From Oscillospiraceae bacterium (GTDB lineage Bacteria; Bacillota; Clostridia; Oscillospirales; Acutalibacteraceae): 64,000 nt of DNA. Below the pieces are notes generated by a model. That model made no database searches and had not been told where the DNA came from. It worked only from the letters and a program-made list of their open reading frames with translations. This document shows, one piece after another, positions 35,849 through 55,017 of this stretch (position 1 is the first letter of the stretch; every line of letters starts with the position of its first letter). A program made the translations under genes and the position numbers. The stretch is taken from positions 20,295 to 84,294 of the forward strand of contig JAKVJJ010000004.1 in assembly GCA_022487055.1 (NCBI GenBank), given 5' to 3'.

Positions 35849-36269
35849 CGTGTTCTCCTTTTAGCAGTGCCGTATCCACGTTTTCCGCGGTGCCATATTT
35901 CACGCGCATCATCCTGTCCCACCAGCTTTAGGATGATGATGAATCAATGAAAGTATACTTTAAATTGGAATTTTTATCAACAAGATTTGTTCTTTTCCCC
36001 ACTGCTTCCCCAGAATTGTGCGCTTTGGGGTAGGCAATATTTTTCACCTGCTTTCTTAAAAATTTTAAAACAAGTATGCACCGCTTGGAAAATGTGCTAT
36101 AATATTTGATTAGTGTTCATCCTATGTTTTTCCAGATTGTTTTCTATTTATATAAGGTATAAGAGATAAAGCGATTCCATCCGTACATTAAATGATTTTT
36201 CGGACAAGTCGGTCCGGAAAAGTTCAGCAATTCCGGGCCAACAGGAATTCTGAGAGAAAGGTGAAAAGT

Positions 36270-38027
36270 TTGAAACAACAGAATCAGGAAACACAAGGCG
36301 CACAGCAGGCACAAACCATGCCAAGTCCTTTCCGCAAAAAGCTGAACCGCCTATGGCGTGATGACCGCAGCTATCGTGCACGACTGGTCATAGCGCTCAT
36401 CACCTTATTTGCGGCGTGTTTTACATTCCTCTTTTTTGGTCCAATGGAGCTAAGCGCCTATGCACAGTCCTCCCTTGTTTTCAGCATGAAGGAAGCACTG
36501 CCAATTATGGCAATATTGACTCTGGTAATTTGTGTCGGCGGTGCCCTTGTGCTGGCATTGCTGCACGGCAGAATCTTCAATTATCTGATAACGGCGGTCT
36601 TCTCCCTTTTGGTATGCGGCTATGTGCAGGGAAATTTTCTCAACGGCAGCCTTGGTGCTCTCACCGGCGATACCATCAAATGGGACCTGCAGAAAAAAGC
36701 TATGGCTGGCGATGTTCTGGTCTGGCTGCTGATTTTTTTGATTCCATTTATTATTCTTTATTTTAATAAGAATATTTGGAAAAAGGTAATTGTTTTCGGT
36801 TCGGCGGCACTCATTGTCATGCAGTCTGTCGCATTCGTCACACTTTTTACCAGCGGAGTTGCCAGTACTTCCTCCAATAAGACCAATTACCTGACACAGA
36901 AAGAGGAGGGGGACTATTCCACCAAGCACAACACCTTGATTTTCCTGCTGGACAGAATGGACTATGACCATATTGAGGAAATCCAGCGGAATGAGCCTGC
37001 ACTTTTCACAAAGCTGGATGGCTTCACAAGTTACACAAATGCCATTTCAGAACACGCACGGACAAAGCCGGCTATCAATTATCTTTTTACAAACAGCGAT
37101 CTTATCTGGAAAGTGCCGCAGGAAGAATATTTTGAAAAGTCATGGAGCGACGGTGGCAAGAACCTGCTGAAAGATGTAAAGTCACAAGGTTACACGATTG
37201 ATTTTTACACAGATATTGACCTGATTTTCGGAAATGGCAGTACGGTGAAACCCTATATTTCCAATATGTCCTCCAACAAGAGCAAGCTTAACGCCAAATC
37301 GATTATTAAAAATCTAAGCTTTCTTTCCGCTTACCGCTATCTGCCGACCATTGGCAAGCCGTTCTTTTGGTCTGACACAGATGCTGTAAACCGCGGTATT
37401 TATTATGATAATGTGCGCTATCAGATTGATGAAACGCAGTATGACCATATTCGTAATTTTACTTTGAACAAAAACACCAAGTATTTAAAATATTATCACT
37501 TCATGGGCTCCCACCCTCCCTACACTGTGAATGAGGAAGGAACCCGCACCGGCACCACCAATGTGCTGGAACAAACCAAAGGCAATTTCCGCATCCTATT
37601 TCGTGCCTTTGATAAAATGAAGAAGATGGGCATTTATAAAGATTCCACTATCCTCATCTGTGCCGACCACGGCGACCCAGTCAACGATGTCACCCCACTG
37701 CACAAAGCAAACCGCATCGGCTTTTTTTATAAACCTTCCGGAAGCGCCGGCACGAAACTGAAAGAGTCTCGCGCACCGATTTCCTTTAAGAATGTGCCTG
37801 CCTCCATTGCAAAGTCTGCTGGCATTGCGGATTATCACAAATATGGTAAGCCGATTGAAGAAGTCGGTGAAAATGATAAGGTCACACGTTATTTCTATAA
37901 GGCTGTGATGCAGGATAACTACGAAAAGAATTTGTATATTTATCAGATAAATGGCGACGCGGCAGATTTCCGCAACTGGAAAATTATCCGTGTGGATCAT
38001 CCGAGCCGTGAGGCCAGTTTCTGGTAA
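36270..38027 (+). CDS. Sulfatase/LtaS-like polytopic phosphotransferase or hydrolase
   Basis: About five N-terminal TM segments then an alkaline-phosphatase-superfamily domain (NTLIFLLDRMDYDH, YYHFMGSHPPYTVNEEG, STILICADHGDPVND). TTG start at 36270 preferred (AGAAAGGTG upstream). Confidence 0.8.
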   Translation: MKQQNQETQGAQQAQTMPSPFRKKLNRLWRDDRSYRARLVIALITLFAACFTFLFFGPMELSAYAQSSLVFSMKEALPIMAILTLVICVGGALVLALLHGRIFNYLITAVFSLLVCGYVQGNFLNGSLGALTGDTIKWDLQKKAMAGDVLVWLLIFLIPFIILYFNKNIWKKVIVFGSAALIVMQSVAFVTLFTSGVASTSSNKTNYLTQKEEGDYSTKHNTLIFLLDRMDYDHIEEIQRNEPALFTKLDGFTSYTNAISEHARTKPAINYLFTNSDLIWKVPQEEYFEKSWSDGGKNLLKDVKSQGYTIDFYTDIDLIFGNGSTVKPYISNMSSNKSKLNAKSIIKNLSFLSAYRYLPTIGKPFFWSDTDAVNRGIYYDNVRYQIDETQYDHIRNFTLNKNTKYLKYYHFMGSHPPYTVNEEGTRTGTTNVLEQTKGNFRILFRAFDKMKKMGIYKDSTILICADHGDPVNDVTPLHKANRIGFFYKPSGSAGTKLKESRAPISFKNVPASIAKSAGIADYHKYGKPIEEVGENDKVTRYFYKAVMQDNYEKNLYIYQINGDAADFRNWKIIRVDHPSREASFW

Positions 38028-38070: not shown

Positions 38071-38400
38071 ATGAAAAAGAGAAATAAGTTTCTGGCTTTT
38101 ACGCTGTTCTTTATTCTTGGCACATTCCTGTTTTCACCGGCAGTGAATGCCTATATCGACCCATCCGCCATGACCTATATTGTGCAGGTGATTGTCGGTA
38201 TTGTCATTGCGGGCGGTGCCGCCGTTGGCTTTTATTTTAAGAAAATCAAGAGAGCCATTACCAAAAAAGGAAAAGATGACAGCAAAGACAAGCCGCAGCA
38301 GGCAGCCGTCAGCTTCAGTGCAGATGATGATGATGACGATGACTTTGATGACAGCAAGCTGACCAGCAATGAGCTGAATCAGATGAATGGCAAAAAGTAA
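38071..38400 (+). CDS. Small YIDPS-motif membrane protein with acidic tail
   Basis: MKKRNKFLAFTLFFILGTFLFSPAVNAYIDPSAMTYIVQVIVGIVIAGGAAVGFYFKKIKRAI...DDDDDDDFDDSKL; ATG preceded by AAAGAGG. Confidence 0.75.
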   Translation: MKKRNKFLAFTLFFILGTFLFSPAVNAYIDPSAMTYIVQVIVGIVIAGGAAVGFYFKKIKRAITKKGKDDSKDKPQQAAVSFSADDDDDDDFDDSKLTSNELNQMNGKK

Positions 38401-38917: not shown

Positions 38918-39027
38918 CTGGAAACTTTCGGCCGGCCTGATGCCTTTGTTAGACTGGCCGAGAAATAATATCTGAAATGCGGGGGTTGCCCCCTAAGGTT
39001 ACACAAGACAATAAGGGAGTTGGATTT

Positions 39028-41121
39028 ATGGACATTATCGGCAATATACTGGGTACGCCGCTTGGCTACATCATGAAATTCTGTTACGACATCATTCACG
39101 ATTATGGACTGGCCATCATCGTGTTTACGCTGTTGACAAAGGTCATTTTGTTTCCGGTATCTCTCATGGTACAGAAAAATTCCATTAAAATGATTAAGAT
39201 GCAGCCGTTGCTGGATGCTTACAAGTACCAGTATGTAGATGATAAGGATGCTCTATTTGATGCGCAAAACGCTCTGTACAAAAAGGAAAAGTACAATCCG
39301 TTCATGGGGGTTATTCCGCTGCTCATTCAGATTCCGATTATTTTCGGTCTGATTGACGTGGTTTACCGCCCGCTGAAACATCTGCTGCATTTTCCGCAGG
39401 AAGCCATCAATGCTTTCACCACTCTGACCTGTCACCTGATGGGAGTTACACAGCTTGGTTCTTCTCCGGAGCTGGTTGTGATGAAGTGCGTGAGTGACCC
39501 TGCTCATCAGAATGCCTTTCTCGCCCTGCAAAGTTCCTCACTGAAGGGTTTCGACGTTTCTCATATGCTAGCACAGATGCACAGCATAAACATGAATTTT
39601 CTGGGTTTTGACCTTGCTGCAACTCCCAGCTTCATTCAGCTCAACCTTCTGTTCCTCATTCCGGTTCTGGCGGGTGTCAGCGCACTGATTATGTGCATCA
39701 TTCAGAATAAAATCAACGTCCTGCAAATTGAGCAAAGCCCGCTGGCACAATGGGGCATGACTATCTTTATGATTGCTTTCTCCACTTACTTTGCATTTCT
39801 AGTACCGGGCGGCGTCGGTCTGTACTGGATTTTCGGCAACCTGTTTGCCATTCCAGTTATGTACATCGTCAACATCATTTATGACCCACACAAATATATA
39901 GACTATGAAACGCTGAATCGGCTGAAGGAAAAGGCAAAGAAAGACCGTGCCCTGCAGAAAGAGAGCAATGCCCTCTCCAGCAAATATTACAAGGAACTTT
40001 GCCACAATGGTACGCTGGAAAAAATGCGCTTGATGTTTTATTCCGAGCAAGGCGGTTTCTATAAATATTTTGAAAATATTATTAATGCCCTGCTTCAGAA
40101 AACCGATGAGCCGATTTATTATGTAACCAGTGACCCGCACGACAATATTTTTCAGAATACAAATCCACAGATAAAACCCTATTATATCGGCGGCAATCAG
40201 CTCATTGCGCTGATGATGAAGCTGGAGTGCGACATGGTGATTATGACCACCCCGGACTTGGAGAAATACCACATCAAGCGTTCCAAAGTGCGTGATGACA
40301 TTGAGTATGTATTCCTTGACCACTCTTGCATGAGCCTGAACCTCACCTATCGCACCGGTGCACTGGACTATTATGACACTATTTTCGCCGTCAGCCGCAA
40401 TCAGGGCATTGAAGTGCGTGAAATGGAGAAGCTGCGCGGCACCAAGAAAAAGCACATCGTCAAAGTTGGCTTCGGGCTGATTGACAATATGCTGGAGTCC
40501 TATCGGGAGCTGCCGAAAACCCCGCATGAAAAGCCGATTATCCTCATTGCGCCTTCATGGCAGTATGACAATATTCTGGACAGTTGCCTGGACAATATTT
40601 TGGAAGGACTGCTCAGCAAAAATTATAAAGTAATTGTCCGGCCACATCCACAGTATATCCGCCGCTTCCCGGTGGAAATGGAACGCATCATGGAGAAATA
40701 CCGCAGCCGCTTCAGTGACGACTTTGAGATTCAGACGGATTTCTCCTCCAATGCAACGGTCTATACTTCTGACCTGCTGATCACTGACTGGTCTGCCATT
40801 GCCTATGAATTCAGCTTTACGACAGAAAAGCCGACGCTGTTCATCAATACCCAAATGAAAGTGGTCAACAAAGACTATAATAAGATTAAGTTACAGCCGA
40901 TGGATATCACCGCCCGTGATATTGTTGGCCGCTCCATCAGCAAGGAAGCGACCAAAGAGATTGACCAGTATGTAACAGAAATTCTGGAAAATCAGAGCAC
41001 CTATGCGCAGCAGATACGTGACCTACGTGACAGTTATTTCTACAACCTTGGTCACAGTGGAGAAGCCGCTGCGGATTACATTGTTGACCGGCTGAACGCC
41101 AGAAAGCGTACGGAAAACTAA
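39028..41121 (+). CDS. Fusion: YidC/Oxa1-like insertase domain + CDP-glycerol glycerophosphotransferase (TagF-like) domain
   Basis: N-terminus LTKVILFPVSLMVQKNSIKMIKMQPLLDAYKYQY...NPFMGVIPLLIQIPIIFGLIDVVYRPLKHLL...VGLYWIFGNLFAIPVMYIVN is YidC-like; C-terminus FLDHSCMSLNLTYRTGALDYYD...VRPHPQYIRRFP...TSDLLITDWSAIAYEFSFTTEKPTLF is TagF-like. Single uninterrupted ORF. Confidence 0.88.
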   Translation: MDIIGNILGTPLGYIMKFCYDIIHDYGLAIIVFTLLTKVILFPVSLMVQKNSIKMIKMQPLLDAYKYQYVDDKDALFDAQNALYKKEKYNPFMGVIPLLIQIPIIFGLIDVVYRPLKHLLHFPQEAINAFTTLTCHLMGVTQLGSSPELVVMKCVSDPAHQNAFLALQSSSLKGFDVSHMLAQMHSINMNFLGFDLAATPSFIQLNLLFLIPVLAGVSALIMCIIQNKINVLQIEQSPLAQWGMTIFMIAFSTYFAFLVPGGVGLYWIFGNLFAIPVMYIVNIIYDPHKYIDYETLNRLKEKAKKDRALQKESNALSSKYYKELCHNGTLEKMRLMFYSEQGGFYKYFENIINALLQKTDEPIYYVTSDPHDNIFQNTNPQIKPYYIGGNQLIALMMKLECDMVIMTTPDLEKYHIKRSKVRDDIEYVFLDHSCMSLNLTYRTGALDYYDTIFAVSRNQGIEVREMEKLRGTKKKHIVKVGFGLIDNMLESYRELPKTPHEKPIILIAPSWQYDNILDSCLDNILEGLLSKNYKVIVRPHPQYIRRFPVEMERIMEKYRSRFSDDFEIQTDFSSNATVYTSDLLITDWSAIAYEFSFTTEKPTLFINTQMKVVNKDYNKIKLQPMDITARDIVGRSISKEATKEIDQYVTEILENQSTYAQQIRDLRDSYFYNLGHSGEAAADYIVDRLNARKRTEN

Positions 41122-41130
41122 ATGATAAAC

Positions 41131-41185
41131 AAAAAGACCGAACCTTCGGCAGAGTTACAAAAGCTCTCGGAGGTTCGGTCTTTTT
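41131..41185. terminator. Bidirectional terminator
   Basis: AAAAAGACCGAACCT ... AGGTTCGGTCTTTTT, 15-bp perfect arms, between convergent genes. Confidence 0.85.
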
Positions 41186-41201
41186 GCGTTAGGAACTTGC
41201 C

Positions 41202-43007
41202 TTACTGCAATTCTTTCAGTGCTTTCAGCAAGATTTCATTGTCGGTATCATCGCGCACGGCAAGACGGATATATTCACGCCCGTCGCCGACTTTCGCACT
41301 CAAATCCTTGATGAACAATTTATACCGCACCAACAGTTCACGGGTGAGACGCGCAGAAGTGAGGCCGCCGGTCAATTCACACATGACATAATTTGCCTGT
41401 GTCGGCAGCACCCGCAGATAAGGAATCTGATGCAGGCCTGCCACAAAGCGGGTACGCGCGGCACGGAACTGCTGCATGGCCGCTGTATAATCCTTCTGAT
41501 ACTTCCCAGCTATCTGCATATAGAACTCTCCGAAAGAATTAATGTTCCAGATTGCAACATCCTTTTTCAATGCAGCAATCAATTCGGTATTAGCAGACGC
41601 CAGCACACCTAAGCGTACCCCCGGCACACCATAGGACTTGGAAATACTCTTCACCACAATCAAATGCGGATACTTTTCAAGGAGCTCATCATGAAAGAGC
41701 GTAGCATCCTGTTCATCCGCAAAGTCGACAAAGCTTTCATCCACAATCAAGGAAATGCCCGCATTCTCTGCCCAGTCAGCAGCTTGCAGCACTTCTTCTT
41801 GGGGTAAATAATTTCCCGTGGGATTGTCCGGATTGATAAGCAAAAGGGTATTAACCGGATTCTTGCTGAAAAACGCGATGAGGTCGGCCGCATGATAAGA
41901 AAAGTCCGGATAACCCGGGCGATAGACGACCGCCTGTCCTTTTTTGCAGCGGTTCGGATATTCTTCAAAGGTCGGACGTACAAAGCCAATTTTCCCGGCA
42001 GTACGACCCATCAGCGCCTTAATCAGTTCGGAAGCGCCATTGCCAACTAAAATATACTCCTGCTTAACATCAAAGTTCTTGGCTGCCAGCAAGGAATTGA
42101 CTTTCATGCCGGACGGATACTGTGTCAGCAATGTCTGGAAATTGGCCTGCATCTCATCCACTAACTTCTGCGGCGGATAGAAAGGGTTGACCAAATAACA
42201 GAAGTCCAGCAGCTTTGGGAAGCGCCAGAAACCGCCGTAAGCACCCTGCAGGGCAGCAACCTTGCCATCGTCATCCGCAAACAGCACTGACGCGATGCTG
42301 AGGTCCTGCATATCGTCAATTTCATACCATTTCTGTCCGGTCAGGCACTTTGCTCGAATGCACGGTTCATCAATTAGGGAAATCACGCGCAGCACCTGCT
42401 CGTAATACTCATTGTTTCCCAGTGCGTGTGAATAGGCCTCCAGAAACGGCACATAGTATTTCTGGGAAAATTTCTTGCCGAATTTATAGAAATTGACCGT
42501 CTTGTAATACTGGTCTTTTTCGTGAAAATCAAAACTTTTGCCGGGAATAAATTCCTGTATGGAATCGTCCTCCCCCAGCTTCACCACCGTGCCGTCCATC
42601 CAGCTCTCGTATTTATCCACCAGTGCCAGTGTATCGCGCGGGTCGTCATGCAGCATCTGCAGCACGCTGTCCTCCACAATGATATCTGACTCCAGCAGCA
42701 GCGTGTCCTCTTTGAGCAGATAGTTTCGCGCAAGCCACAGGGAATAAATATTATTCGTTGTGTCATAGATTGGATTTTCAATATATACAATCGGAATCCG
42801 CAAGCCAAGTGTTCCAATATAGTCCTTAAGCTTCTGTCCCTGATAGCCGACAACAATCACCACTCTGGAAAGCTGCAGCGCCTGAAGCTGATGCAACAGC
42901 CGGTCAATGAGCGTCACACCGTTCACCGCAACCATACATTTCGTATTCTCCGCTGTCAATTCTTTCAGGCGCCTGCCCATGCCGGCTGCCAAAATAATTC
43001 CCTGCAT
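41202..43007 (-). CDS. Fusion: LicC/PntC-like nucleotidyltransferase + HisC/CobD-like PLP-dependent aminotransferase/decarboxylase
   Basis: MQGIILAAGMGRRLKELTAENTKCMVAVNGVTLIDRLL, NPIYDTTNNIYSLWLA (LicC-type) followed by LVGNGASELIKALMG, LLINPDNPTGNYLP, VDESFVDF, VKSISKSYGVPGVRLGVLAS (fold-type I PLP enzyme). Confidence 0.85.
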   Translation of the reverse strand: MQGIILAAGMGRRLKELTAENTKCMVAVNGVTLIDRLLHQLQALQLSRVVIVVGYQGQKLKDYIGTLGLRIPIVYIENPIYDTTNNIYSLWLARNYLLKEDTLLLESDIIVEDSVLQMLHDDPRDTLALVDKYESWMDGTVVKLGEDDSIQEFIPGKSFDFHEKDQYYKTVNFYKFGKKFSQKYYVPFLEAYSHALGNNEYYEQVLRVISLIDEPCIRAKCLTGQKWYEIDDMQDLSIASVLFADDDGKVAALQGAYGGFWRFPKLLDFCYLVNPFYPPQKLVDEMQANFQTLLTQYPSGMKVNSLLAAKNFDVKQEYILVGNGASELIKALMGRTAGKIGFVRPTFEEYPNRCKKGQAVVYRPGYPDFSYHAADLIAFFSKNPVNTLLLINPDNPTGNYLPQEEVLQAADWAENAGISLIVDESFVDFADEQDATLFHDELLEKYPHLIVVKSISKSYGVPGVRLGVLASANTELIAALKKDVAIWNINSFGEFYMQIAGKYQKDYTAAMQQFRAARTRFVAGLHQIPYLRVLPTQANYVMCELTGGLTSARLTRELLVRYKLFIKDLSAKVGDGREYIRLAVRDDTDNEILLKALKELQ

Positions 43008-43863: not shown

Positions 43864-45834
43864 TTAGCCGCGCCAGTTCCGATGAAACATTGGGCTGCCG
43901 TCATTCATCCAGACACGCATTTCGCCCTTCCCACGGTTGTTCCAGAGTGCATATGGCACAGCCGTCAGTGTGCAGGCTTCATATGTCGGTTTTTCCAATC
44001 CATAAAGCGGATTATCCTTCTGCGGCATCACAGTTCTGCAGCCGCTGAAAGTCGCACTGCCGGATTCTTCAGGCAGTCCCTTGACAAAAGCCGAATGAAC
44101 CGGAGCTTCTGTATCTGCATAAATACCGGCCAGATGCGAACCATTGTCCGCTTCTTCCAAACAATAGACAACCGGGCCTTTCATTAAAGCTGTCTTGCCA
44201 ATGTTATCACTGCAATGCGGATTACAGTATACAAAACGGAATTGCACATCAAAATCAATGGATACAAGGTCTTCCCGCTTCCACATCCGCTTGATGAAAA
44301 GATACCCGTCCCGCTGTGTGCAGTCCACCTTGCTGCCATTGACACACACTTGGTACTTTGCAGAATAGGCCGGTTTGCGCACTGCCAGACTGAACGGAGC
44401 TTCCGCTGTGCTATCCGACTGAATCTCAATGTGCCCGCTGTTCGGATAATCGGCATGAAGACAAAAGCGAAGGTTTCCCCCCTTAACCGGTACCTTTACG
44501 CAGCTCTGAATAAACAGGTTGACATACAGCGCCTCTTCATCATATGCGTAAATATAATTGCTCAGGGATGCAAGCGTGCGGGCAATGTTTGGAGGACAAC
44601 AGGCAACGCCGAACCACTGCTGGCGCATTGTCTTGATATGCCGCATCGTCGGATTGTGCTCCGCAACTTCGGGAATGACCTCCAACGGATTTACATAAAA
44701 GAAATGCTTTCCGTCCAATGCAATTCCTGCAAGCAGCGTATTATATAGTGCCTGTTCCACGGTGTCCATATATTTCCCGCTGTGCGTAATCTGAAACATC
44801 CGGTTGGAAAACTGTGCCAGACCAACGGTAGCGCAGGATTCAGAATAGTTGGTATTATTGGGTAGGTCGTAGTTGCCCGTAAACCGCTCGCCATAGGAAG
44901 CCGAACCGATGCTGCCGGTGATATACATCTTTTTTTGCGTTATGTTGTTCCACAAAGCGTCACATTGCTTCAAAAGAGTATCGTCCCGCTCCTCATAGGC
45001 AACATCTGCCATACCGCTTAAAAGATAAGCCGCACGGACTGCGTGTCCTTCCACGGTCGTCTGCTCCTGCAGCGGCTTCTGCGCCATCATATAGTCCAGA
45101 CCAAAATCTGCAAACTCCGGGAAAATATAATTTCCGGTTTTGCGGCATTCTTCATTCAGAAAGTAGCTGGGGGATTTTCCCCTCTCCCGAATAAAATAAT
45201 CAGCAAGCGAAAGATAACGTTTCTCCTGTGTAACACGATACAGTCGTATCAGCGCCAGCTCAATTTCCGGGTGTCCGGGATAACCGTGTATCTTTCCTTC
45301 TTCCCGGCCGAAAGTCCTGTAAATACAGTCCGCCAGACGACAAACCGTGTCTAAAAATCTCCGCTTTCCGGTTGCTTCATAATAGGCAACCGCTGCCTCA
45401 ATCATATGGCCGGCTGTGTAAAGCTCATGTCCTTCATAAAGGTCTGACCAGCGTTTTTGTTTTGTAATAATAAAGTACGTATCAAGGTAACCGTCTGGGC
45501 ACTGTGCTCTGCTAATTAAATCGATTGCGCCATCTGCCAAGGCTTCCAGCTTTTTGTTTGGCTTTTTTGCAAGCGTATAAGCGACAGCCTCCAGCCACTT
45601 TGCAACGTCAGTGTCCTGAAATACCGTTCCGAGGTGCTCACCCTTTTCATCACCGCACGCAATACGGAAATTATGCATACAGTAACTTTTTTCGGCTCCT
45701 TCCACCCGGTCATTGATTAGTTCCCACTGGAAAGGAAGAATCACTGTTTCAACTAAATTAATATAATGGTTCCAGAATGGGTCATTGATTGTAACGTCTG
45801 ATAATTTTACATTTTGTAGCCGGTGTAATTCCAT
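43864..45834 (-). CDS. GH127 family (beta-L-arabinofuranosidase-type) glycoside hydrolase
   Basis: LSDVTINDPFWNHYINLVETVILPFQWELIND; LGTVFQDTDVAKWLEAVAYTLA; CPDGYLDTYF; HELYTAGHMIEAAVAYYEATGKR; WFGVACCPPNIARTLASLSNYIYA. Confidence 0.9.
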   Translation of the reverse strand: MELHRLQNVKLSDVTINDPFWNHYINLVETVILPFQWELINDRVEGAEKSYCMHNFRIACGDEKGEHLGTVFQDTDVAKWLEAVAYTLAKKPNKKLEALADGAIDLISRAQCPDGYLDTYFIITKQKRWSDLYEGHELYTAGHMIEAAVAYYEATGKRRFLDTVCRLADCIYRTFGREEGKIHGYPGHPEIELALIRLYRVTQEKRYLSLADYFIRERGKSPSYFLNEECRKTGNYIFPEFADFGLDYMMAQKPLQEQTTVEGHAVRAAYLLSGMADVAYEERDDTLLKQCDALWNNITQKKMYITGSIGSASYGERFTGNYDLPNNTNYSESCATVGLAQFSNRMFQITHSGKYMDTVEQALYNTLLAGIALDGKHFFYVNPLEVIPEVAEHNPTMRHIKTMRQQWFGVACCPPNIARTLASLSNYIYAYDEEALYVNLFIQSCVKVPVKGGNLRFCLHADYPNSGHIEIQSDSTAEAPFSLAVRKPAYSAKYQVCVNGSKVDCTQRDGYLFIKRMWKREDLVSIDFDVQFRFVYCNPHCSDNIGKTALMKGPVVYCLEEADNGSHLAGIYADTEAPVHSAFVKGLPEESGSATFSGCRTVMPQKDNPLYGLEKPTYEACTLTAVPYALWNNRGKGEMRVWMNDGSPMFHRNWRG

Positions 45835-45838
45835 AGTT

Positions 45839-46873
45839 TCAGTCCTTCATCTCTCGAATCGAGTCGCCTTGGACAATGCGGCATGGCAGCGTAATGTTAA
45901 TGTCTTCATTGGTCTTGTTCTCCATCTTATCGATGAGGATTTCCATGGACCGCACACCCATTTCATGCAAAGGACGCTCGACCGTGGTAATTCTCGGTGT
46001 CACATACTGAATGATGGAAGAATTATCAAAACCGCTTAAAGAAAGGTCCTGCGGTATCGATATGCCAAGTGCCCTCGCAGCGTCCATGCAGCCTGCCGCC
46101 ATGTCATCATTCATTGCAATAATCGCATCCAAATTGTCCTTTTGCTGCAAAAGCTCTGTTGCCACTTTGCGAGCAGTATCATATTTCCAGTCTCCGGTTT
46201 TCACAGCAGAAGGGTCCAGGTGAATCCCTGCTTCATCCAATGCGGTCTGAATACCCTTCATCCGCAAATGGCACGGCTCCGAAGTTTCCGCACCTTTGAT
46301 GATGCCAAAGCGGCGGTGGCCTTTCTTAATAAATTCATTGGTCAGCTCAAAGGCTGCTTTTTCATTGCTGTAACCAACGGACGTCCCTTCCCCATAAGTA
46401 TAGCAATAGCAATATACCACAGGCTTATCAATATCATGAAGGACATCACGAATCATGCGGTCATGCATTCCAACGTAGATAATTCCATCGACCTGCATCG
46501 ACATCAGGGGTTCCACCGCTTTATCAATATCCTTCTGGAATTTTGAAATATGTTCAAACTGGGATTCGATTTTGCTTAAAAGGCGCAGGTTGCTCAATAT
46601 AATTTTATAATTTGTCTTGTCTGCCGCCTCATTGATGCCGTCAATAATATAGGGCATATGGCGGACGGTTATATCTTCCACAATAACGCCTACCAGATAG
46701 GTTCGGTTAGTGCGAAGCCCCTGCGCAAGGAAATTGGAATGATAGCCCTCTTCCTTGATGATTTTTTCCACTTTGCATCGCGTTTCATCCCCGATTTTTG
46801 GGGAACCGTTCAAAACATAAGAAACCGTAGCAGTAGAAACTCCGGCACGTTCCGCAATTTCTTTCAGTGTCAT
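45839..46873 (-). CDS. LacI-family transcriptional regulator
   Basis: MTLKEIAERAGVSTATVSYVLNGSPKIGDETRCKVEKIIKEEGY. Confidence 0.95.
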   Translation of the reverse strand: MTLKEIAERAGVSTATVSYVLNGSPKIGDETRCKVEKIIKEEGYHSNFLAQGLRTNRTYLVGVIVEDITVRHMPYIIDGINEAADKTNYKIILSNLRLLSKIESQFEHISKFQKDIDKAVEPLMSMQVDGIIYVGMHDRMIRDVLHDIDKPVVYCYCYTYGEGTSVGYSNEKAAFELTNEFIKKGHRRFGIIKGAETSEPCHLRMKGIQTALDEAGIHLDPSAVKTGDWKYDTARKVATELLQQKDNLDAIIAMNDDMAAGCMDAARALGISIPQDLSLSGFDNSSIIQYVTPRITTVERPLHEMGVRSMEILIDKMENKTNEDINITLPCRIVQGDSIREMKD

Positions 46874-46914
46874 ATGGAACTCTCCTTTAAGCTGGCATTC
46901 TCCCGAATTTCATG

Positions 46915-47763
46915 TTACTTCAATCCGGTTGTTTTAATCCCACCCACCAGATATTTTGAACCAAAAATATACAGAAGCATTGGTGGAACCAGCATAAAGG
47001 TAGAAGCAGCCATGATGGATGCCCAATTTATTACAAATGCGTTTCCTGAAGTATACATGAAACTCGTCATCAGTGCAATGGTCATCGTTCTCCATTTGTC
47101 ACTGTTGATGTAAAACACCGGCTGTGTCAGCTCGTTCCACCAGAAGACACAGGACAGAATGCCGATGGTGACGATTGTCGGTTTGCTGATTGGCATAATC
47201 ACCTTAAAAAAGACCTGTGGGCGGGTGCAGCCGTCGATAATTGCCGCCTCATCCAGCTCTTTCGGGATTGACCGGAAGAACTGCCGGAAAAGGAATACAT
47301 TGTACGGATAAGCAAACCATGCCGGAACAATCATCGGGAGCAAAGAATCGAGCCAGCCAATTTTTCCAAACATAATGTACTGCGGAATAATCAGTGCAAT
47401 GTTTGGAATCAGCATGGTTGCAACAATGATAGAGAAAATAACCTTTTTCCCCGTGAAATCCATTCTTGCCAGCGGATATGCCACCAGCGCGGAGGATAAC
47501 AGCGTGCCAATCGTTGCGCCAAACATCAGGAAGAAAGTATTTGCCATGTACCTCCAGATGTTGCTGTGCTCAAAAATATACTGATAGTTCTCTGTTGTCG
47601 GATGAGCCGGGAACAAATTTGCGGTTGTTGTGAACTCTGTTAAGGTTTTAAAACCGCCTGTCAAAATCCAGATGATAGGCATAAACATAATCAGCGCCAC
47701 AAGAATCTTTAGGACATACATTCCCAAAGAATGAAGATGTGTTTTGATATGAGCAGATTCCAT
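46915..47763 (-). CDS. Carbohydrate ABC transporter permease (MalG-like)
   Basis: RSIPKELDEAAIIDGCTRPQVFFKVIMPISKPTIVTIGI EAA motif. Confidence 0.93.
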   Translation of the reverse strand: MESAHIKTHLHSLGMYVLKILVALIMFMPIIWILTGGFKTLTEFTTTANLFPAHPTTENYQYIFEHSNIWRYMANTFFLMFGATIGTLLSSALVAYPLARMDFTGKKVIFSIIVATMLIPNIALIIPQYIMFGKIGWLDSLLPMIVPAWFAYPYNVFLFRQFFRSIPKELDEAAIIDGCTRPQVFFKVIMPISKPTIVTIGILSCVFWWNELTQPVFYINSDKWRTMTIALMTSFMYTSGNAFVINWASIMAASTFMLVPPMLLYIFGSKYLVGGIKTTGLK

Positions 47764-47774
47764 GAGCCCACCCC

Positions 47775-48671
47775 TCAGTCTTCGTAATATACTGTCTTCT
47801 TTGAAATGGCAAAGATAAGTCCGCCAAAGACAGCCGCAACCAGAAACAGAATGACAGACAATGCACAGGCATAGCCGACCTTCATATTGCTGAATGCTTC
47901 TTTATAGATAAGCAGGCTTAGTACCTGTGTTGAACCATTTGGGTCACCGTTTTCACTGGTCAGTGGATAGAGTAACGCGAACGAGCCGTTCAGGGCACTG
48001 ACACAGCCGCTCACTGCATTAAACAGAATCAGCGGTGAAATCATCGGCAGTGTAATGTGGAAAAACTTCTGAATGAAGGTCGCACCATCCAAGTTGCTCG
48101 CTTCATACAGTTCTTTTGGCACATCGGACAGTCCTGAGCGAAAAATCAGCATCATCTGCCCTGTGCTGTAAGTGAACAGGGTGATGAAAAACACCACGAA
48201 ATAAATGGTGTTTTGCTGATAAAGCCAGTTCACCTCAATATTGCGCCCCGCAAACATACTCAGGATATTATTGAGCAGACCGGCATTTTTACCAAAAATG
48301 GTTCTGAAAGCATAGGCTAGAGCCACTGTTGGGACAACGGACGGCAGGAAATAGCAGAACTGAAATATCCCGTTAAATCTCTGCTTGCTGTTCAGCAGCA
48401 GTGCCATGATAATTGCCCATATGGTTGTAACCACCACCATCACAATCGTGAAAAAGATGGTCACACGCAAGGAATTCCAAAAGACAGAACTTCGAAACAT
48501 ATTTTTGTAATTTGTCAAGCCAATAAATTTAGACACACCGTTCAGTTTCCGGTTGGTCAGACTTTGCTGCACCATAAAGATAATTGGGAACAGAGTAAAA
48601 CAAAGGAATCCAATTATCCATGGCAGTATAAAAGCATAGGCTACTTTGTTGTCTTGATTTTTTCGCCGCAT
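47775..48671 (-). CDS. Sugar ABC transporter permease (MalF-like)
   Basis: LSDVPKELYEASNLDGATFIQKFFHITLPMISPLILFN. Confidence 0.93.
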   Translation of the reverse strand: MRRKNQDNKVAYAFILPWIIGFLCFTLFPIIFMVQQSLTNRKLNGVSKFIGLTNYKNMFRSSVFWNSLRVTIFFTIVMVVVTTIWAIIMALLLNSKQRFNGIFQFCYFLPSVVPTVALAYAFRTIFGKNAGLLNNILSMFAGRNIEVNWLYQQNTIYFVVFFITLFTYSTGQMMLIFRSGLSDVPKELYEASNLDGATFIQKFFHITLPMISPLILFNAVSGCVSALNGSFALLYPLTSENGDPNGSTQVLSLLIYKEAFSNMKVGYACALSVILFLVAAVFGGLIFAISKKTVYYED

Positions 48672-48744
48672 ATGCTCTCCCTCCTAAAAGATGCCGAATG
48701 TGCTGCCATCTTTTCATTAAAATATTTCTTTTATTTCCGCAGCA

Positions 48745-50022
48745 TCAGTAACCGATGGTCTCCGCCGCATAATCAGAAGCACGTTTAACAGCTTCCTCCG
48801 GTGTTGTCTGGCCAAGCAGCGCGGAATTGAACTTACTGACTGCGTTGTTTGTAACACCGGACGGCAGGCAAGTGTAACCGAAAATGCCGGAATTCAGGGA
48901 ATCTGTGATTGCGTCCCAGTTTGTTACTTTCTTTGCGGAAGCAACTTTCCATGCACCCTTCGCTGCGATCGTTTTCAGCGCAGACGGGTTGCCGCTTGCT
49001 TTGGAGTTAATTGTCTGGCCTTCTTCGCCCATCAGGTATTCAATGACTTTCCATGCTGCTGTCTGTTTCTTGCTGTTTGCATTGATGGTATAGAAGCCGG
49101 TATGCAGGGTGTTGTACTTCACCTTATTGGTTGGCAGAGAGGCAATATCCCAGTTGAAGGACAGCTTGTCCGCATAAGTCCCGACATTCCAGCTCCCCTG
49201 CCATGCCATTGCTGCCTTTCCGGCTGCAAACAGGTCTGTTGTATCAGAGGACGGCGCAGGCATAACTTTTGCATCAACCATTTCTTTGCAGTCCTTTACA
49301 AAGGAAACCGCGCCGCTGCCGATGACCATCTGACCGTTGGACGGGTCGTAAATCTTGTCGCCCGCTCCGCCAATGCCTGCCCACCATGTCTGGGTGTTGG
49401 GCAGAGCACAGCCATAGACACCGTTCTTTGTCAGCTTTTTAGCGGCTGCTTTAAAGTCCTCATACTTCCAGTTGTTTGTCGGCAGCGGGATTCCTGCGGC
49501 CTTAAACATATCTTTGTTGTAGTAAAGAATTTCTGTGGCAGCACACCACGGCAGGCCATAAGTGGCACCCATGCCACCAGAAAGTTTGGAAACCGCCGGA
49601 ATAAAGTCGCTGGTTTTGATTGTGGATTTCTTAAGATAGCTGTCCAGCGGAAGAATGCCCTTCGCTTCAGCAAAATTTTTCAGATCATTTTCCCAAACAA
49701 CCATAATGTCGGATGAAGCGTCTTTGGTGGAAACCATCTGCCCAAGTTTAGAAGAATAGTCACTTTCCGGAATAACTGTGACATTGACCTTCACACCTGT
49801 TGCCTTTTCCGCCTGCTTGTACATATTCAGCGCATCGTCCTTGCTTGGTTCATTCCAGGTCGTAATGGTGATGCTCTGACCGGAAACATCCTGAGAAGCC
49901 TGTGTGGAAGCTGCAGCAGAGCCTGCTGCCTGTGGACTGGAACTTGGCTGCGATTCACCGCAGCCAGCGAGTGTACCTGTCATCATGACAGCGGCCAACA
50001 GAAATGATACAACCTTTTTCAT
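48745..50022 (-). CDS. Extracellular sugar-binding lipoprotein (SBP family 1)
   Basis: Lipobox LAGCGESQ; ITITTWNEPSKDDALNMYKQAEKATGVKVNVTVI. Confidence 0.92.
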   Translation of the reverse strand: MKKVVSFLLAAVMMTGTLAGCGESQPSSSPQAAGSAAASTQASQDVSGQSITITTWNEPSKDDALNMYKQAEKATGVKVNVTVIPESDYSSKLGQMVSTKDASSDIMVVWENDLKNFAEAKGILPLDSYLKKSTIKTSDFIPAVSKLSGGMGATYGLPWCAATEILYYNKDMFKAAGIPLPTNNWKYEDFKAAAKKLTKNGVYGCALPNTQTWWAGIGGAGDKIYDPSNGQMVIGSGAVSFVKDCKEMVDAKVMPAPSSDTTDLFAAGKAAMAWQGSWNVGTYADKLSFNWDIASLPTNKVKYNTLHTGFYTINANSKKQTAAWKVIEYLMGEEGQTINSKASGNPSALKTIAAKGAWKVASAKKVTNWDAITDSLNSGIFGYTCLPSGVTNNAVSKFNSALLGQTTPEEAVKRASDYAAETIGY

Positions 50023-50063
50023 TTTGAATTCCTCCCATTGCCTTTTTGCAACGCTATGATGTA

Positions 50064-50151
50064 TTTAATCGATTCACCAAATTCATGTATATATTCGTGT
50101 GTAAAACCCAGTTATTCGCATATATACAAGTAGGTTAATCGATTCACTAAA
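50064..50151. promoter_or_regulatory. Two LacI-type operator candidates upstream of the SBP gene
   Basis: TTTAATCGATTCACCAAA (50064-50081) and TTAATCGATTCACTAAA (50135-50151), both centred on ATCGAT. Confidence 0.6.
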
Positions 50152-50364
50152 TAGAGTATACCTGTTCTTCACCATTTTGTCAATTAAATATATTCAACAT
50201 AGTTTATAAAATATATTTGTACATAATGTCTCACTTCCTAAAAACCTTTCTTGAATAATAAACACAGATATTTCTTGCATTTTCCTCAATGAATTGAGAG
50301 TCCGTCCTGAATTTCTGTTATATGTATTGTATGCCGAAAGCGCGCTCCCATCCATCAAAATGCA

Positions 50365-50403
50365 CAAAAAAGAGAGGTACCATTTGTTTTGGTATCTCTC
50401 TGA
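50365..50403. terminator. Intrinsic terminator downstream of the methyltransferase gene
   Basis: AGAGAGGTACC ATTTGTTTT GGTATCTCTCT next to an A-run. Confidence 0.65.
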
Positions 50404-50476
50404 AAAATCTTCATGGAATGGTTTATGCTTTTGTCAGCAGTGAATTTATGACAAGATGTTTGCTATATCTGCACAC

Positions 50477-51247
50477 TCATTTTGTGGCTGTGAAAAAGAA
50501 TCTTGGAAACCGGAATATGATTTCTCCGTTCTTCTGCTTTGGATAGGCACTGATCAGTTCCTTATAAATGTCCTTTTCAAAGTCTGTCTTATCGGTTTCC
50601 GACAAAGCATTTAGGTAAGGGCGCAGTCCCGTTGCACGATACCATTCCATAATATCGCTATGAGACTTCATCTTATGGAAATAAGTCGTTTCCCAAATAC
50701 AAAAATCAGAAGCAATATCCGACAACAGGTCATAGTATTGGCTCGGCGTCAAATTATAACAGATTCGTGGATTCTGAAATTTGGAAGACCATTTATGATT
50801 TGTGGATATTTGCTTTATGATTTGATGAATTGGTTCCTGATAGTTCATTGGCGTTTGTACTGCAAGCACTCCACTGGGTTTCAATAGGCACATCATGTTA
50901 TACAGCAGTGTATTATGATTCGGTATCCATTGAATGCAGGCATTCGAAAACACAATGTCAAAGTCCCTGCCCAATGTATGCAAATCGCTGCTTGCATCAC
51001 ACTGCACAAACCGAATATTCGGATGCTGCACTTTGGCTGCTTCTATCATAGCCGGTGAACTGTCAATGCCTAAAATATCCGCATCCGGATACCGCTGTGC
51101 CAGCACTTCAGAACTGTTTCCCGGTCCACAGCCGATATCCAATATTTTTTTCGGTTTTTCCAAATAAATGCGGTTCACCAAGTCAATGGCGGGCTGTGTC
51201 CGTTCATTGCTAAATTTTAGGTACTTTGCTGAATCCCAATCCGTCAT
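50477..51247 (-). CDS. tam: Class I SAM-dependent methyltransferase (trans-aconitate methyltransferase-like)
   Basis: MTDWDSAKYLKFSNERTQPAIDLVNRI; KILDIGCGPGNSSEVLAQRYPDADILGIDSSPAMIE; NACIQWIPNH. Confidence 0.85.
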   Translation of the reverse strand: MTDWDSAKYLKFSNERTQPAIDLVNRIYLEKPKKILDIGCGPGNSSEVLAQRYPDADILGIDSSPAMIEAAKVQHPNIRFVQCDASSDLHTLGRDFDIVFSNACIQWIPNHNTLLYNMMCLLKPSGVLAVQTPMNYQEPIHQIIKQISTNHKWSSKFQNPRICYNLTPSQYYDLLSDIASDFCIWETTYFHKMKSHSDIMEWYRATGLRPYLNALSETDKTDFEKDIYKELISAYPKQKNGEIIFRFPRFFFTATK

Positions 51248-51388
51248 AGTATTGCCTCCTTCTATCGTTACCGCAGGACAAATCCATTTTCATGTCCGAC
51301 GTTCTGTCTCATCCTTCTGCGGGAACAGGTCTATGGAAAGGTGAACGCAAAAGCAGTGTTTCTCCGGCAACCGCGGCATGGGTATGCT

Positions 51389-52267
51389 TTAGCCTTTTAT
51401 TGCGCCGGCAATAACACTTTTCTGCAACTGATCGCTGAACAGGAAATAAATAATCAAAGTAGGAACCGTAGCAATCACAAGCCCGGCCCCGATTGGCCCC
51501 CAGTGTGTGCCCTGTTGGCCGGAAAGCGACATGATGCCGACTGTAAGGGTCTTCAAATTATCGTTGCTCACAAAGGTATTGGCAAACATCAGCTCGTTCC
51601 AGGAAGAAAGGAATGTGAAAATTGCAACGGTAGCAATTGCCGGACGAACCAGCGGCAGTACGATGCTGTAAAACATTCTGTATATACCGCAGCCGTCCAG
51701 ACAGGCCGATTCCTCCATTTCTTTCGGAACATCCCGGAAGAATCCCACCATAATGAAAATTCCCATTGGCAGCGCAAAGGCTGTATAAGGAAGGATCAGG
51801 GACAAGTAGCTGTTGAGAAGCCCTAAATTTTTTAGAACAATAAACAACGGAAGAAGCGTTGCATGAAGCGGTACCATCATTCCAAGAAGAATGAAATTCA
51901 GAAACGCATGGCTCAATTTCCAGTGCATACGTGCGATTGCATAAGCCGAGGTCGTAATTAGGATGGTGGAGAGCACAATTGTAATACCGGTTACGATAAC
52001 GCTGTTTAACAGGTAAACTGCAACATTGCCGTTGGTCAATACATCGGAATAGTTTGACGCTCTCCATACCAGCGGCAACCCCATGGCATTTCCGCTGAAA
52101 ATTTCATTGTTATCTTTAAAAGAAAACAGGAAAAGCCAGATTAGGGGATAAATCTGAATGACTGCAAATATCCCCAGCAACAAGTACATGACTACGGAAG
52201 AAACTTTTATTTTCTTTTTTCCTACACTCGGTTCGCGTTTAAGATCTGCCTCCATATGTATCACCAT
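51389..52267 (-). CDS. Carbohydrate ABC transporter permease (MalG-like)
   Basis: RDVPKEMEESACLDGCGIYRMFYSIVLPLVRPAIATVAIF. Confidence 0.93.
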   Translation of the reverse strand: MVIHMEADLKREPSVGKKKIKVSSVVMYLLLGIFAVIQIYPLIWLFLFSFKDNNEIFSGNAMGLPLVWRASNYSDVLTNGNVAVYLLNSVIVTGITIVLSTILITTSAYAIARMHWKLSHAFLNFILLGMMVPLHATLLPLFIVLKNLGLLNSYLSLILPYTAFALPMGIFIMVGFFRDVPKEMEESACLDGCGIYRMFYSIVLPLVRPAIATVAIFTFLSSWNELMFANTFVSNDNLKTLTVGIMSLSGQQGTHWGPIGAGLVIATVPTLIIYFLFSDQLQKSVIAGAIKG

Positions 52268-52270
52268 TCT

Positions 52271-53161
52271 TTATTCCACTGCATTTTTGCTGAAAAGTTT
52301 ATTGATTACCAGGGTAAAAACAAGACATTCTATAATAATAAAAATCGCCATTGCGCTGCCATATCCGTACTGGTAGCGCGTAAAAATAGTTGTATACATC
52401 AGGGTTGTAGGAACTTCCGTAGAATGCAGCGGACCACCGTTTGTCATGACATAAATCAGGTCGAAAGCTTTAAACGAACCTGTTACGGCAAAAACAATGC
52501 AGACGGCGAGAATCGGCTTCATCAAAGGAATGGTTATATGGAACGCCATTGTCGCTTCTCCTGCACCATCTATGCGTGCAGCTTCATAAATATCCGGTGA
52601 AATTGATTTGGCACCGGCATACAGCAGTAGCATATAATAACCGACGTACTGCCACACCATGGCGACAAAAACCGATGCCAACGCCGTTTTCGTGTCGGCC
52701 AGCCATGCATCCGTCAGAGACCCAAGCCCAATGGCTTTCAGAACTGTGTTCAGCATACCGTAATCGTTATTATAAATTTTCATCCATAGCTGCCCGATAA
52801 CAACCGTCGAAATGATGACCGGAATAAAATATACCGTTCTGAAAAAACGTTCTCCACGAATTCCCCTTGCAAGGGTCAGCGCCAAAACCAGAGAAAACGG
52901 GATCTGAATACCGACGGAAATCAAAGCTAACACCAGCGAGTTGATAACCGCCTGGATAAAGCCGTCGGTGTTATTCACAAAAAGGTTTTTATAATTTTCA
53001 AACCCAACGAACACTTCTTTTGAAAATCCGTCCCACTTCAAAGTGCTGTAATGGAGAGAAAAGAAGATGGGTATTACAATAATTACGGTAAGCAAAATAA
53101 ATGTCGGAAGGATGAAAAGAAGTATCGTTCTTTTTCTACTAAGTAATCTGTCCATAAACAT
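52271..53161 (-). CDS. Sugar ABC transporter permease (MalF-like)
   Basis: KSISPDIYEAARIDGAGEATMAFHITIPLMKPILAVCIVF. Confidence 0.93.
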   Translation of the reverse strand: MFMDRLLSRKRTILLFILPTFILLTVIIVIPIFFSLHYSTLKWDGFSKEVFVGFENYKNLFVNNTDGFIQAVINSLVLALISVGIQIPFSLVLALTLARGIRGERFFRTVYFIPVIISTVVIGQLWMKIYNNDYGMLNTVLKAIGLGSLTDAWLADTKTALASVFVAMVWQYVGYYMLLLYAGAKSISPDIYEAARIDGAGEATMAFHITIPLMKPILAVCIVFAVTGSFKAFDLIYVMTNGGPLHSTEVPTTLMYTTIFTRYQYGYGSAMAIFIIIECLVFTLVINKLFSKNAVE

Positions 53162-53214
53162 CGGCTCTCTTTTTCAAGAATCATAGATTTGGATGACCTG
53201 TAATTTTAAAATGA

Positions 53215-53250
53215 TTTTCCCTGTTAAGAACAAAGCGATAACAGGGAAAA
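53215..53250 (-). terminator. Intercistronic hairpin between SBP and permease genes
   Basis: TTTTCCCTGTT AAGAACAAAGCGAT AACAGGGAAAA, 11-bp arms. Confidence 0.6.
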
Positions 53251-53276
53251 CCTGGGTTATTTTATGATCTGCCGTC

Positions 53277-54581
53277 TCAAGATTTGTTGATCTTCTGTTG
53301 CATCTGCTTGCTGTAATCTGCCGGTGTAATTGTTGTACCGAACAGTTTCTGAACAAGGTCATGATGCGTCTGAGCATCGTCGCCGGTCAAATACAGATCC
53401 CATGCGGGAACACTGCCGGTCGAGCCATTCACGATGTTATCCATAATCTGCTTGGAAAGCGGATCAACTTTGGACTGATCGAGAGAATCATTTTTCCACT
53501 CGGGGAGTCCACCGCCTGTCAGGTACATGGCGGAAGAGAACTTTTCTGCAAGGTACTTGATTGCTTTGACTGCCTGATCTTTATATTTTGTATTGGCACT
53601 CACTAGCAAAGCATCCGCACTGCCGCCAAGGTATTCAGTGCTGACACCCTTACCTCCGGAGATCATCGGGAACTTAACTGCGCTGACCTTCCCTTTCAGA
53701 GATTCGTCAATGAGCTGTGCATCAAAGTTGCCGCCAAAGTACATCGGGATTTTGCCCTGCGTAAACTGTGCAACGGCGTCGTCACGCGTGACACTCAGAA
53801 CGTCCTTTGAAAACGCTCCTGCCTTGACAAGGTCTTCGAGTTTCTGCGCTGCATCGGTAAACGGTGCCTGATCATAAGATGCTTTCTTGTTCAGAGCATC
53901 CAGGCAGGCTGAAGCTCCGGCTGAGCGAAGAGCAATCATGTCATAATACCACATACCGGGCCATTCGTCTTTTTCACCGACGCACATCGGCGTAATGCCT
54001 TTTGCCTTGAACGTCTTTACTGCAGTCAGCAGTTCATCAAACGTCGTCGGGATTTTCACGCCGTTCTGTTTGAACAAGTCGTTGTTCACATACAGAGCGC
54101 CTGCCTGCTGGTTATAGGTAAGGCCGTAAACCTTGCCGTTGAAAGTAATGTTGGTCAGTGCTCCGTTAAGAAGTTTGCCTTTCGTGCCATCGTTCAGATA
54201 CTCATCGACCGGAAGAATTTTTCCTGCGTCAACAAACGTCTTCGTGAACCCGCCTGCCCAGGAATAGATAATGTCCGGGGCACTGTTACCGGCGATTGCT
54301 GTCTTGATCTTCGTTTTGTACGCAGTGTTCTCCGTGGAGTTTGCATCAATTTGGATGTTCGGATTGTCTGTGTTCCACTGCTTAATAATGTTTGCCATGA
54401 CATGCTGCGAATCATTTGTGTAGTTATTCCAAAAAGTCAATGTGACCTTTTCGGAAGAAGCTGAGGTCGTTTGTGTATTACCCTTGGAGTTGCTGGAAGA
54501 CTGGGGCGTGGAACATGCGGAAGCCATCGTCAGCAAGACGGAAGCGCAAAGCGCGCCGGCAACTACTCGCCTAAATTTCAT
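53277..54581 (-). CDS. Extracellular sugar-binding lipoprotein (SBP family 1)
   Basis: Lipobox TMASACSTPQ; VTLTFWNNYTNDSQHVMANIIKQWNTDNPNIQI. Confidence 0.92.
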   Translation of the reverse strand: MKFRRVVAGALCASVLLTMASACSTPQSSSNSKGNTQTTSASSEKVTLTFWNNYTNDSQHVMANIIKQWNTDNPNIQIDANSTENTAYKTKIKTAIAGNSAPDIIYSWAGGFTKTFVDAGKILPVDEYLNDGTKGKLLNGALTNITFNGKVYGLTYNQQAGALYVNNDLFKQNGVKIPTTFDELLTAVKTFKAKGITPMCVGEKDEWPGMWYYDMIALRSAGASACLDALNKKASYDQAPFTDAAQKLEDLVKAGAFSKDVLSVTRDDAVAQFTQGKIPMYFGGNFDAQLIDESLKGKVSAVKFPMISGGKGVSTEYLGGSADALLVSANTKYKDQAVKAIKYLAEKFSSAMYLTGGGLPEWKNDSLDQSKVDPLSKQIMDNIVNGSTGSVPAWDLYLTGDDAQTHHDLVQKLFGTTITPADYSKQMQQKINKS

Positions 54582-55017
54582 AACTTACTCCCCTTAATGT
54601 AAAATATTGATAATCTGCTTTACCGCGCTGGCCCCCTGCAGTTTTCTAATCCTTTTGTCTGCCGGGTCTTTTAGGACGCGATAAAGAAGGTTGACCGACA
54701 ATTTTAAGTAAGACACATGATCATTTTGAATCCTTATTATATTAGATATTGTGGCGAAACGGACTTGCCAATTTCTCATATAGAATGCTTTACTTTTGAA
54801 TGATGCCTAAAAAATATTAAAACTTGAAATTTATTCAGTCACATTGACTATTTATAGTATAAATACATGAAATTGTTTATTCAATAGAATCCTTCAATTA
54901 CAGCAAAGGATGAGCAACATTGAGCAAGAATTGATAAGACTGCCGGCCTCCCAAAAGGTTAAAATTAGTATAGGTTAAAAATGCGATACGTCGTAATACA
55001 AATTGGAGGCTTCCCAA

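Follow-up and report, generated by a model that had tools for sequence, protein, structure and literature searches.

An uninterrupted open reading frame in the window, the 64,000-nucleotide stretch of DNA analysed here, joins a YidC-like domain to a TagF-like glycerophosphotransferase domain (Table 1). It runs on the + strand from an ATG at 39028 to a stop codon ending at 41121, as the first-pass annotation had described it, and both Pfam profiles score above their gathering thresholds, 60KD_IMP on residues 26-282 (120 bits, E 1e-34) and Glyphos_transf on residues 450-672 (42 bits, E 6.5e-11). An alternative ATG lies upstream at 38977; a GGGAG precedes 39028 and the homologues begin at the equivalent of this position. 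Three genes precede the fusion on the same strand, for an LtaS-like protein, a signal peptidase I and a small 'YIDPS' protein, and the operon is separated by a strong terminator from a convergent gene encoding a LicC-CobD protein. This context, like the exchange of fusion partners described below, had been passed over by the first-pass annotation. Beyond it, positions 43864-57189 hold an ordinary glycan-use region (GH127, a LacI regulator, two sugar-binding proteins and GH3).

Table 1. Features of the YidC-TagF locus, in positions of the window.
Feature	Position	Strand	Basis
LtaS/EptA-like membrane phosphotransferase, 611 aa, about 5 TM and an extracytoplasmic alkaline-phosphatase-fold domain	36192..38027	+	Pfam, profile, model
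Small 'YIDPS' protein: predicted signal peptide, AYIDPSAMTY, one TM, acidic tail	38071..38400	+	sequence
Signal peptidase I paralogue, 176 aa	38387..38917	+	TIGR02227 122.8 bits, over cut-off
YidC-TagF fusion, 697 aa	39028..41121	+	ORF, Pfam profiles, predicted model
YidC-like domain, residues 1-292	39028..39903	+	TIGR03592 105 bits; alignment to E. coli YidC
TagF-like GT-B domain, residues about 330-697, predicted cytoplasmic	40015..41118	+	Foldseek TagF/TarL; H432, RPHP (H540), TDWS (D587)
Strong hairpin terminator, between operon and convergent gene	41130..41186	.	-36.5 kcal/mol, z -9.1
LicC/PntC-like cytidylyltransferase + CobD-like PLP domain, 601 aa, convergent to operon	41202..43007	-	profile matches

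The same modules recur in two architectures: type A, in which YidC is fused to the TagF-like domain as in the window, and type B, in which YidC is fused to the LtaS-like domain and an unfused TagF-like gene adjoins. We collected 28 non-redundant type A loci, all from Clostridia in our samples, and 24 type B loci (loci whose proteins are identical over the last 200 residues were counted once, and several loci may come from one genome). At 26 of the 28 type A loci the YidC-TagF protein is accompanied by a separate LtaS-like gene, and a YidC-LtaS fusion is present at 22 of the 24 type B loci; of the two exceptions, one (L072) lies on a contig that ends within the YidC portion and the other (L126) has, about 5 kb off, an LtaS-like ORF that extends past the end of the retrieved region. 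Among 199 genomes sampled from the order, searches with the TagF domain returned the long fusion in 10 and an unfused protein of 420-470 aa in 7 (both in G161 and G197), and a search with a 908-aa YidC-LtaS-like protein, encoded beside one of the unfused genes, returned the same 7 genomes, in each of which its gene adjoins the unfused TagF gene, together with G148. Hydropathy would put the TagF domain, which follows the final transmembrane segment of YidC, on the inner side of the membrane, and the LtaS-like domain fits outside. YidC is therefore joined to the presumed inside enzyme in one architecture and to the presumed outside enzyme in the other.

The type A cassette is well conserved: the LtaS/EptA-like and YIDPS genes accompany the fusion nearly always (YIDPS within 8 kb at 27 of 28 loci) and signal peptidase I often (20 of 28). 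The YIDPS module is separate at most type A loci and fused to the LtaS-like protein at one (L110, 4781-7051), which adds a third fusion pairing of these modules, and a related motif, YIDPGTGS, forms an N-terminal anchor in the type B TagF-like proteins. At another type A locus (L066, 2803-9224) a DltB-like MBOAT gene adjoins and no LtaS-like gene was recognised; a different outer transferase may act there.

The N-terminal half of the fusion belongs to the YidC family by several measures. TIGR03592 and PF02096 score well over their cut-offs (105 bits against 84 and 120 bits against 35, respectively), and the AlphaFold model of the whole protein (pLDDT 84.8, two domains) has the five-TM YidC fold with the C1 hairpin, its N-terminal part matching YidC 3wo7 (Foldseek E 2.5e-6, TM 0.70 on the target) and 6al2. 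The reading of these helices as YidC-like was therefore correct. By alignment, the E. coli groove residues T362, R366, Q429, Y517 and N521 correspond to T34, K38, Q101, W267 and N271, which are nearly invariant among 24 type A domains, position 38 being K or R in all 24; the C1 hairpin is retained in type A as well. The lysine that had been singled out in the place of the groove arginine is indeed the counterpart of R366, but it is ordinary, the 19 clostridial YidCs that we took as canonical having K in 7 cases and R in 6. Since the groove residues are conserved and the lysine is ordinary, the YidC-like half is, as judged from its sequence, not a decayed insertase. Type B domains have N at the groove K/R position (8/8) against K or R in type A, so the two forms may work differently. 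The genome of the window also has a canonical yidC in the rpmH-rnpA-yidD-yidC-jag cluster, where the first-pass annotation had suggested looking for one, and the fusion is therefore a paralogue. This canonical YidC (L002, 1249-2382) itself has N at the groove Arg/Lys place, and those of three congeners (L019-L021) have F; all four have an aromatic residue at the Y517 position. The groove Arg/Lys of YidC has been described as strictly conserved, with an aromatic at the Y517 position making the charge dispensable (PMC8920935).

The C-terminal half has the TagF/TarL fold: Foldseek matched the model to TagF (3l7k, E 3e-10), TarL (8va1) and the TagF-like Cps3D, and a profile search also returned Cps3D (8qoy, E 1e-5). 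Identity in the structural alignment to TagF/TarL is 14-16%, that of a remote relative. The RPHP and TDWS motifs are retained, 'WHGTP' is replaced by 'DHSCM', and H432 aligns, in a low-confidence alignment, with the HGT histidine of a classical clostridial TagF, the neighbouring residues being different. The fold assigned to this half in the first-pass annotation was thus recovered, but its 'complete-looking' glycerophosphotransferase was worded too strongly, since only the C-terminal half of the domain matches the Pfam model (PF04464, cut-off 22.1 bits) and the WHGTP motif has changed. No other PF04464 protein was found in the genome of the window, which is 75% complete.

The LtaS-like protein is the sole PF00884 protein found in this genome (Pfam Sulfatase, 28 bits). 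It matches S. aureus LtaS in profile comparison (2w5r, E 2e-10) with T291 at the position of T300, and its predicted model (pLDDT 83) has a fold like those of PbgA, MCR-1, LtaS and EptA. The candidate nucleophile T291 and the candidate metal ligands D254, H441 and D492 are invariant across both architectures, the remaining candidate ligand H493 nearly so. PbgA/YejM, among the closest folds, is known chiefly for lipid binding, so the fold alone is no proof of catalysis. As for the convergent gene, the N-terminal half of its product matches LicC (1jyk, E 9e-10) and Tde-PntC (6pd1, E 2e-9), and its C-terminal half a CobD-like protein (6oux, E 3e-50) and CobD (1lc5, E 3e-32), of the phosphoserine/threonine-phosphate decarboxylase type. 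From these matches, it is probably the maker of a CDP- or CMP-linked donor.

Headgroup genes were sought around all loci, the set consisting of LicC/PntC-like cytidylyltransferase, the binding protein of an AEP-type importer, choline kinase, PepM, Ppd and PhnW. At least one lies within 8 kb at 18 of the 28 type A and 13 of the 24 type B loci, against none of 20 arbitrarily chosen 16-kb windows of carrier genomes, a comparison in which the LicC and importer models were built from these very loci and the thresholds were identical for loci and controls. The LicC-like gene is within this distance at 12 type A and 11 type B loci (23/52, the window included); about 40% of the loci, some of them with short flanks, lack any headgroup gene in this range. 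NCBIfam cut-offs were exceeded by PepM and Ppd at the type A locus L108, by PepM, Ppd and PhnW-AepZ at the type B locus L125, and by PepM at L116 and L122. The importer genes resemble PhnS2/PhnU2, below cut-off, and L068 has a choline/ethanolamine kinase with an EamA transporter. Two of these loci have further peculiarities. L116 (9961-11976) encodes a PntC-like domain joined to PEP mutase, with a type B TagF/YidC-LtaS set on either side. At L108 (6444-12647) the Ppd, LicC-like and PepM genes are joined by that of an iron alcohol dehydrogenase, a relative of the phosphonate type that scores below cut-off, and the tailoring group there may be hydroxyethylphosphonate in place of AEP.

Based on these data, we propose that the fusion performs the cytosolic transfer and the membrane step of a four-step surface-tailoring pathway, a statement to which, taken whole, we assign a probability of roughly 0.45; that the module set is tied to headgroup tailoring is, on its own, highly probable. 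The module set, its two fusion forms, its association with headgroup genes, the folds and the conserved catalytic positions are observed, and donor, acceptor, step order and flipping by YidC are inferred. In this scheme, (i) a LicC/PntC-like enzyme would make CDP-choline, CDP-ethanolamine or CMP-aminoethylphosphonate (CMP-AEP), depending on the locus, (ii) the TagF-like domain, at the cytoplasmic C-terminus of YidC, would load the headgroup-phosphate or -phosphonate onto a membrane-bound acceptor, (iii) the YidC-like domain, its groove intact, would hold this acceptor while the polar head crosses the bilayer and (iv) the outside LtaS-like enzyme would transfer the group, via a Thr-bound intermediate, to a surface glycan or lipid. 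The surface product would then be phosphocholine, phosphoethanolamine or aminoethylphosphonate. In the window the donor is probably CDP-ethanolamine or CMP-AEP, by a route at which we can guess: the CobD-like domain may form phosphoethanolamine from phosphoserine or, which is our own idea, AEP from phosphonoalanine, and the LicC-CobD fusion is then possibly a one-protein route from either substrate to the activated headgroup. A role similar to the first of these has been suggested for a relative of CobD from Sulfurospirillum (PMC4585668). A de novo phosphonate route was set aside for the genome of the window, no PEP mutase being found in it at 75% completeness. LicD was not found in 10 of 16 carriers, including this genome, so the TagF-like domain may take the place of LicD.

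YidC would hold the middle position of the chain because it is fused to the inside or to the outside transferase in the two architectures. We tentatively suggest that it acts as a dedicated flippase or scramblase of lipids bearing phosphocholine, phosphoethanolamine or aminoethylphosphonate, that its fusion partner alternates between the inside and the outside transferase and that it may have been recruited on two occasions. YidC scrambles ordinary phospholipids in vitro, lipid scrambling by insertases having been seen so far in vitro and in silico (PMC10491306). It seems to us unlikely that the domain is instead devoted to inserting or assembling the proteins of its own operon (the multi-TM LtaS-like enzyme and the YIDPS protein), with the fusion holding the complex together. 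Type A does retain every groove position together with the C1 hairpin, and the operon includes a signal peptidase paralogue, as this would have it, but the genome already has its canonical YidC, a transient event such as insertion calls for no covalent, stoichiometric tie to a transferase, and the type B domain, devoid of a positive groove residue, belongs to the very protein that needs insertion. We likewise doubt that the domain is a mere membrane anchor or scaffold placing the TagF-like or LtaS-like domain near a lipid substrate: TagF-family enzymes do work at the membrane, and the type B TagF-like proteins carry an anchor of their own, but the near invariance of the five groove residues in type A is unexpected for a plain anchor, and the whole domain is retained through two fusion arrangements when one TM would suffice.

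Of the functions proposed for the fusion at first, the use of an insertase fold for handling polymers or lipids is the one that holds up; a coupling of synthesis to membrane or protein insertion has nothing in its support except the fold, and CDP-glycerol is probably the wrong donor. The idea that the protein is a poly(glycerol-phosphate) polymerase with an insertase attached could be defended by the PF04464 match and TagF fold of the C-terminal half and by the LtaS-like partner. The survey of carriers makes it very improbable: CDP-glycerol synthase (TIGR01518) is over cut-off in one of 16 (G161), weaker matches elsewhere being possibly real in some cases, and there is no match in 7 (G198, G175, G176, G215, G121, G060 and, at 75% completeness, the genome of the window, G000), genomes 97-99% complete among them. 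LicC/PntC-like, phosphonate, choline and AEP genes stand at the loci instead, and no glycerol teichoic genes were seen flanking them. As to a sequencing or assembly artefact or a missed stop merging two genes, which nothing favours except the rarity of the architecture, it is ruled out by 14 full-length orthologues on independent contigs (55-80% identity) and by the identical architecture at 28 non-redundant loci in independent assemblies.

A fifteenth orthologue (L037) is truncated by a contig end, G019 has a further relative at 49% identity and additional ones occur in wider samples, so that the fusion is kept in at least 15 other Clostridia genomes at 49-80% identity. Carriers of the TagF-like family number 15 of 199 genomes sampled from the order, 14 of 388 from the class and 2 of 299 from the phylum, and all belong to the class Clostridia. 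Most of the named genomes are metagenome assemblies, and absences from the genome of the window are weak evidence given its completeness. Ten congeners lack the fusion and also any clear PF04464 gene. A recent foreign origin was nevertheless discarded as far as composition goes, no foreign-DNA signal being seen (GC is 0.46 in the cassette and averages 0.49, sd 0.03, over the window). In type A the YidC domains cluster together, next to the clostridial canonical YidCs, and type B is very distant, the two lying on opposite sides of one branch with support 100. A tree constrained to join them is not rejected (AU p 0.24), and we therefore do not claim two independent recruitments of YidC.

We found no description in the literature that combines YidC, CDP-glycerol glycerophosphotransferase and fusion; the qim operon of S. 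pyogenes is without YidC. If the proposed pathway is true, the YidC/Oxa1 superfamily would have a new job, a pathway role in lipid-head transport. The steps of bacterial phosphonate tailoring that follow CMP-AEP formation have been called enigmatic (PMC6697681), and the module set offers candidates for the transferase, the membrane step and the outer ligase within a single operon. Carriers whose names give a source are gut and rumen Clostridia, and the product may therefore shape the surface that host immunity sees.

The proposed logic resembles that of teichoic-acid glycosylation by CsbB-GtcA-YfhO, where a sugar is placed on C55-P, GtcA is the putative flippase and a GT-C enzyme acts outside (PMC7389260): a cytosolic transferase loads a membrane carrier, a small membrane protein flips it and an outside transferase adds the group to a polymer. 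Here, however, the cargo would be a headgroup phosphate or phosphonate, the membrane protein a YidC-family domain and the outside transferase one of alkaline-phosphatase fold. With the known Lic/Pnt clusters, for which LicD-like phosphotransferases or glycosyltransferases are described (PMC6697681), the modules share neighbouring LicC/PntC-like, PepM, Ppd, PhnW, choline kinase or AEP-type importer genes, and they differ in having the TagF-like/YidC/LtaS-like set in place of those transferases. The TagF-like domain has the GT-B fold, the RxH and TD[YW]S motifs and, by the low-confidence alignment, probably the catalytic His position of TagF/TarL (3l7k, 8va1), from which it departs by its low identity, by DHSCM for WHGTP, by the lack of a CDP-glycerol synthase in many carriers and by its fused or paired YidC. 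The YidC-like domain has the fold, groove residues and C1 hairpin of YidC/Oxa1 insertases (3wo7, 6al2), whereas it is an extra paralogue beside the canonical YidC, bears a covalent transferase and sits in a probable tailoring operon. Finally, the LtaS-like protein shares with LtaS, EptA, MCR-1 and PbgA the 5 TM, the outside alkaline-phosphatase-fold domain and the Thr nucleophile position, but is here the operon or fusion partner of a YidC-like domain.
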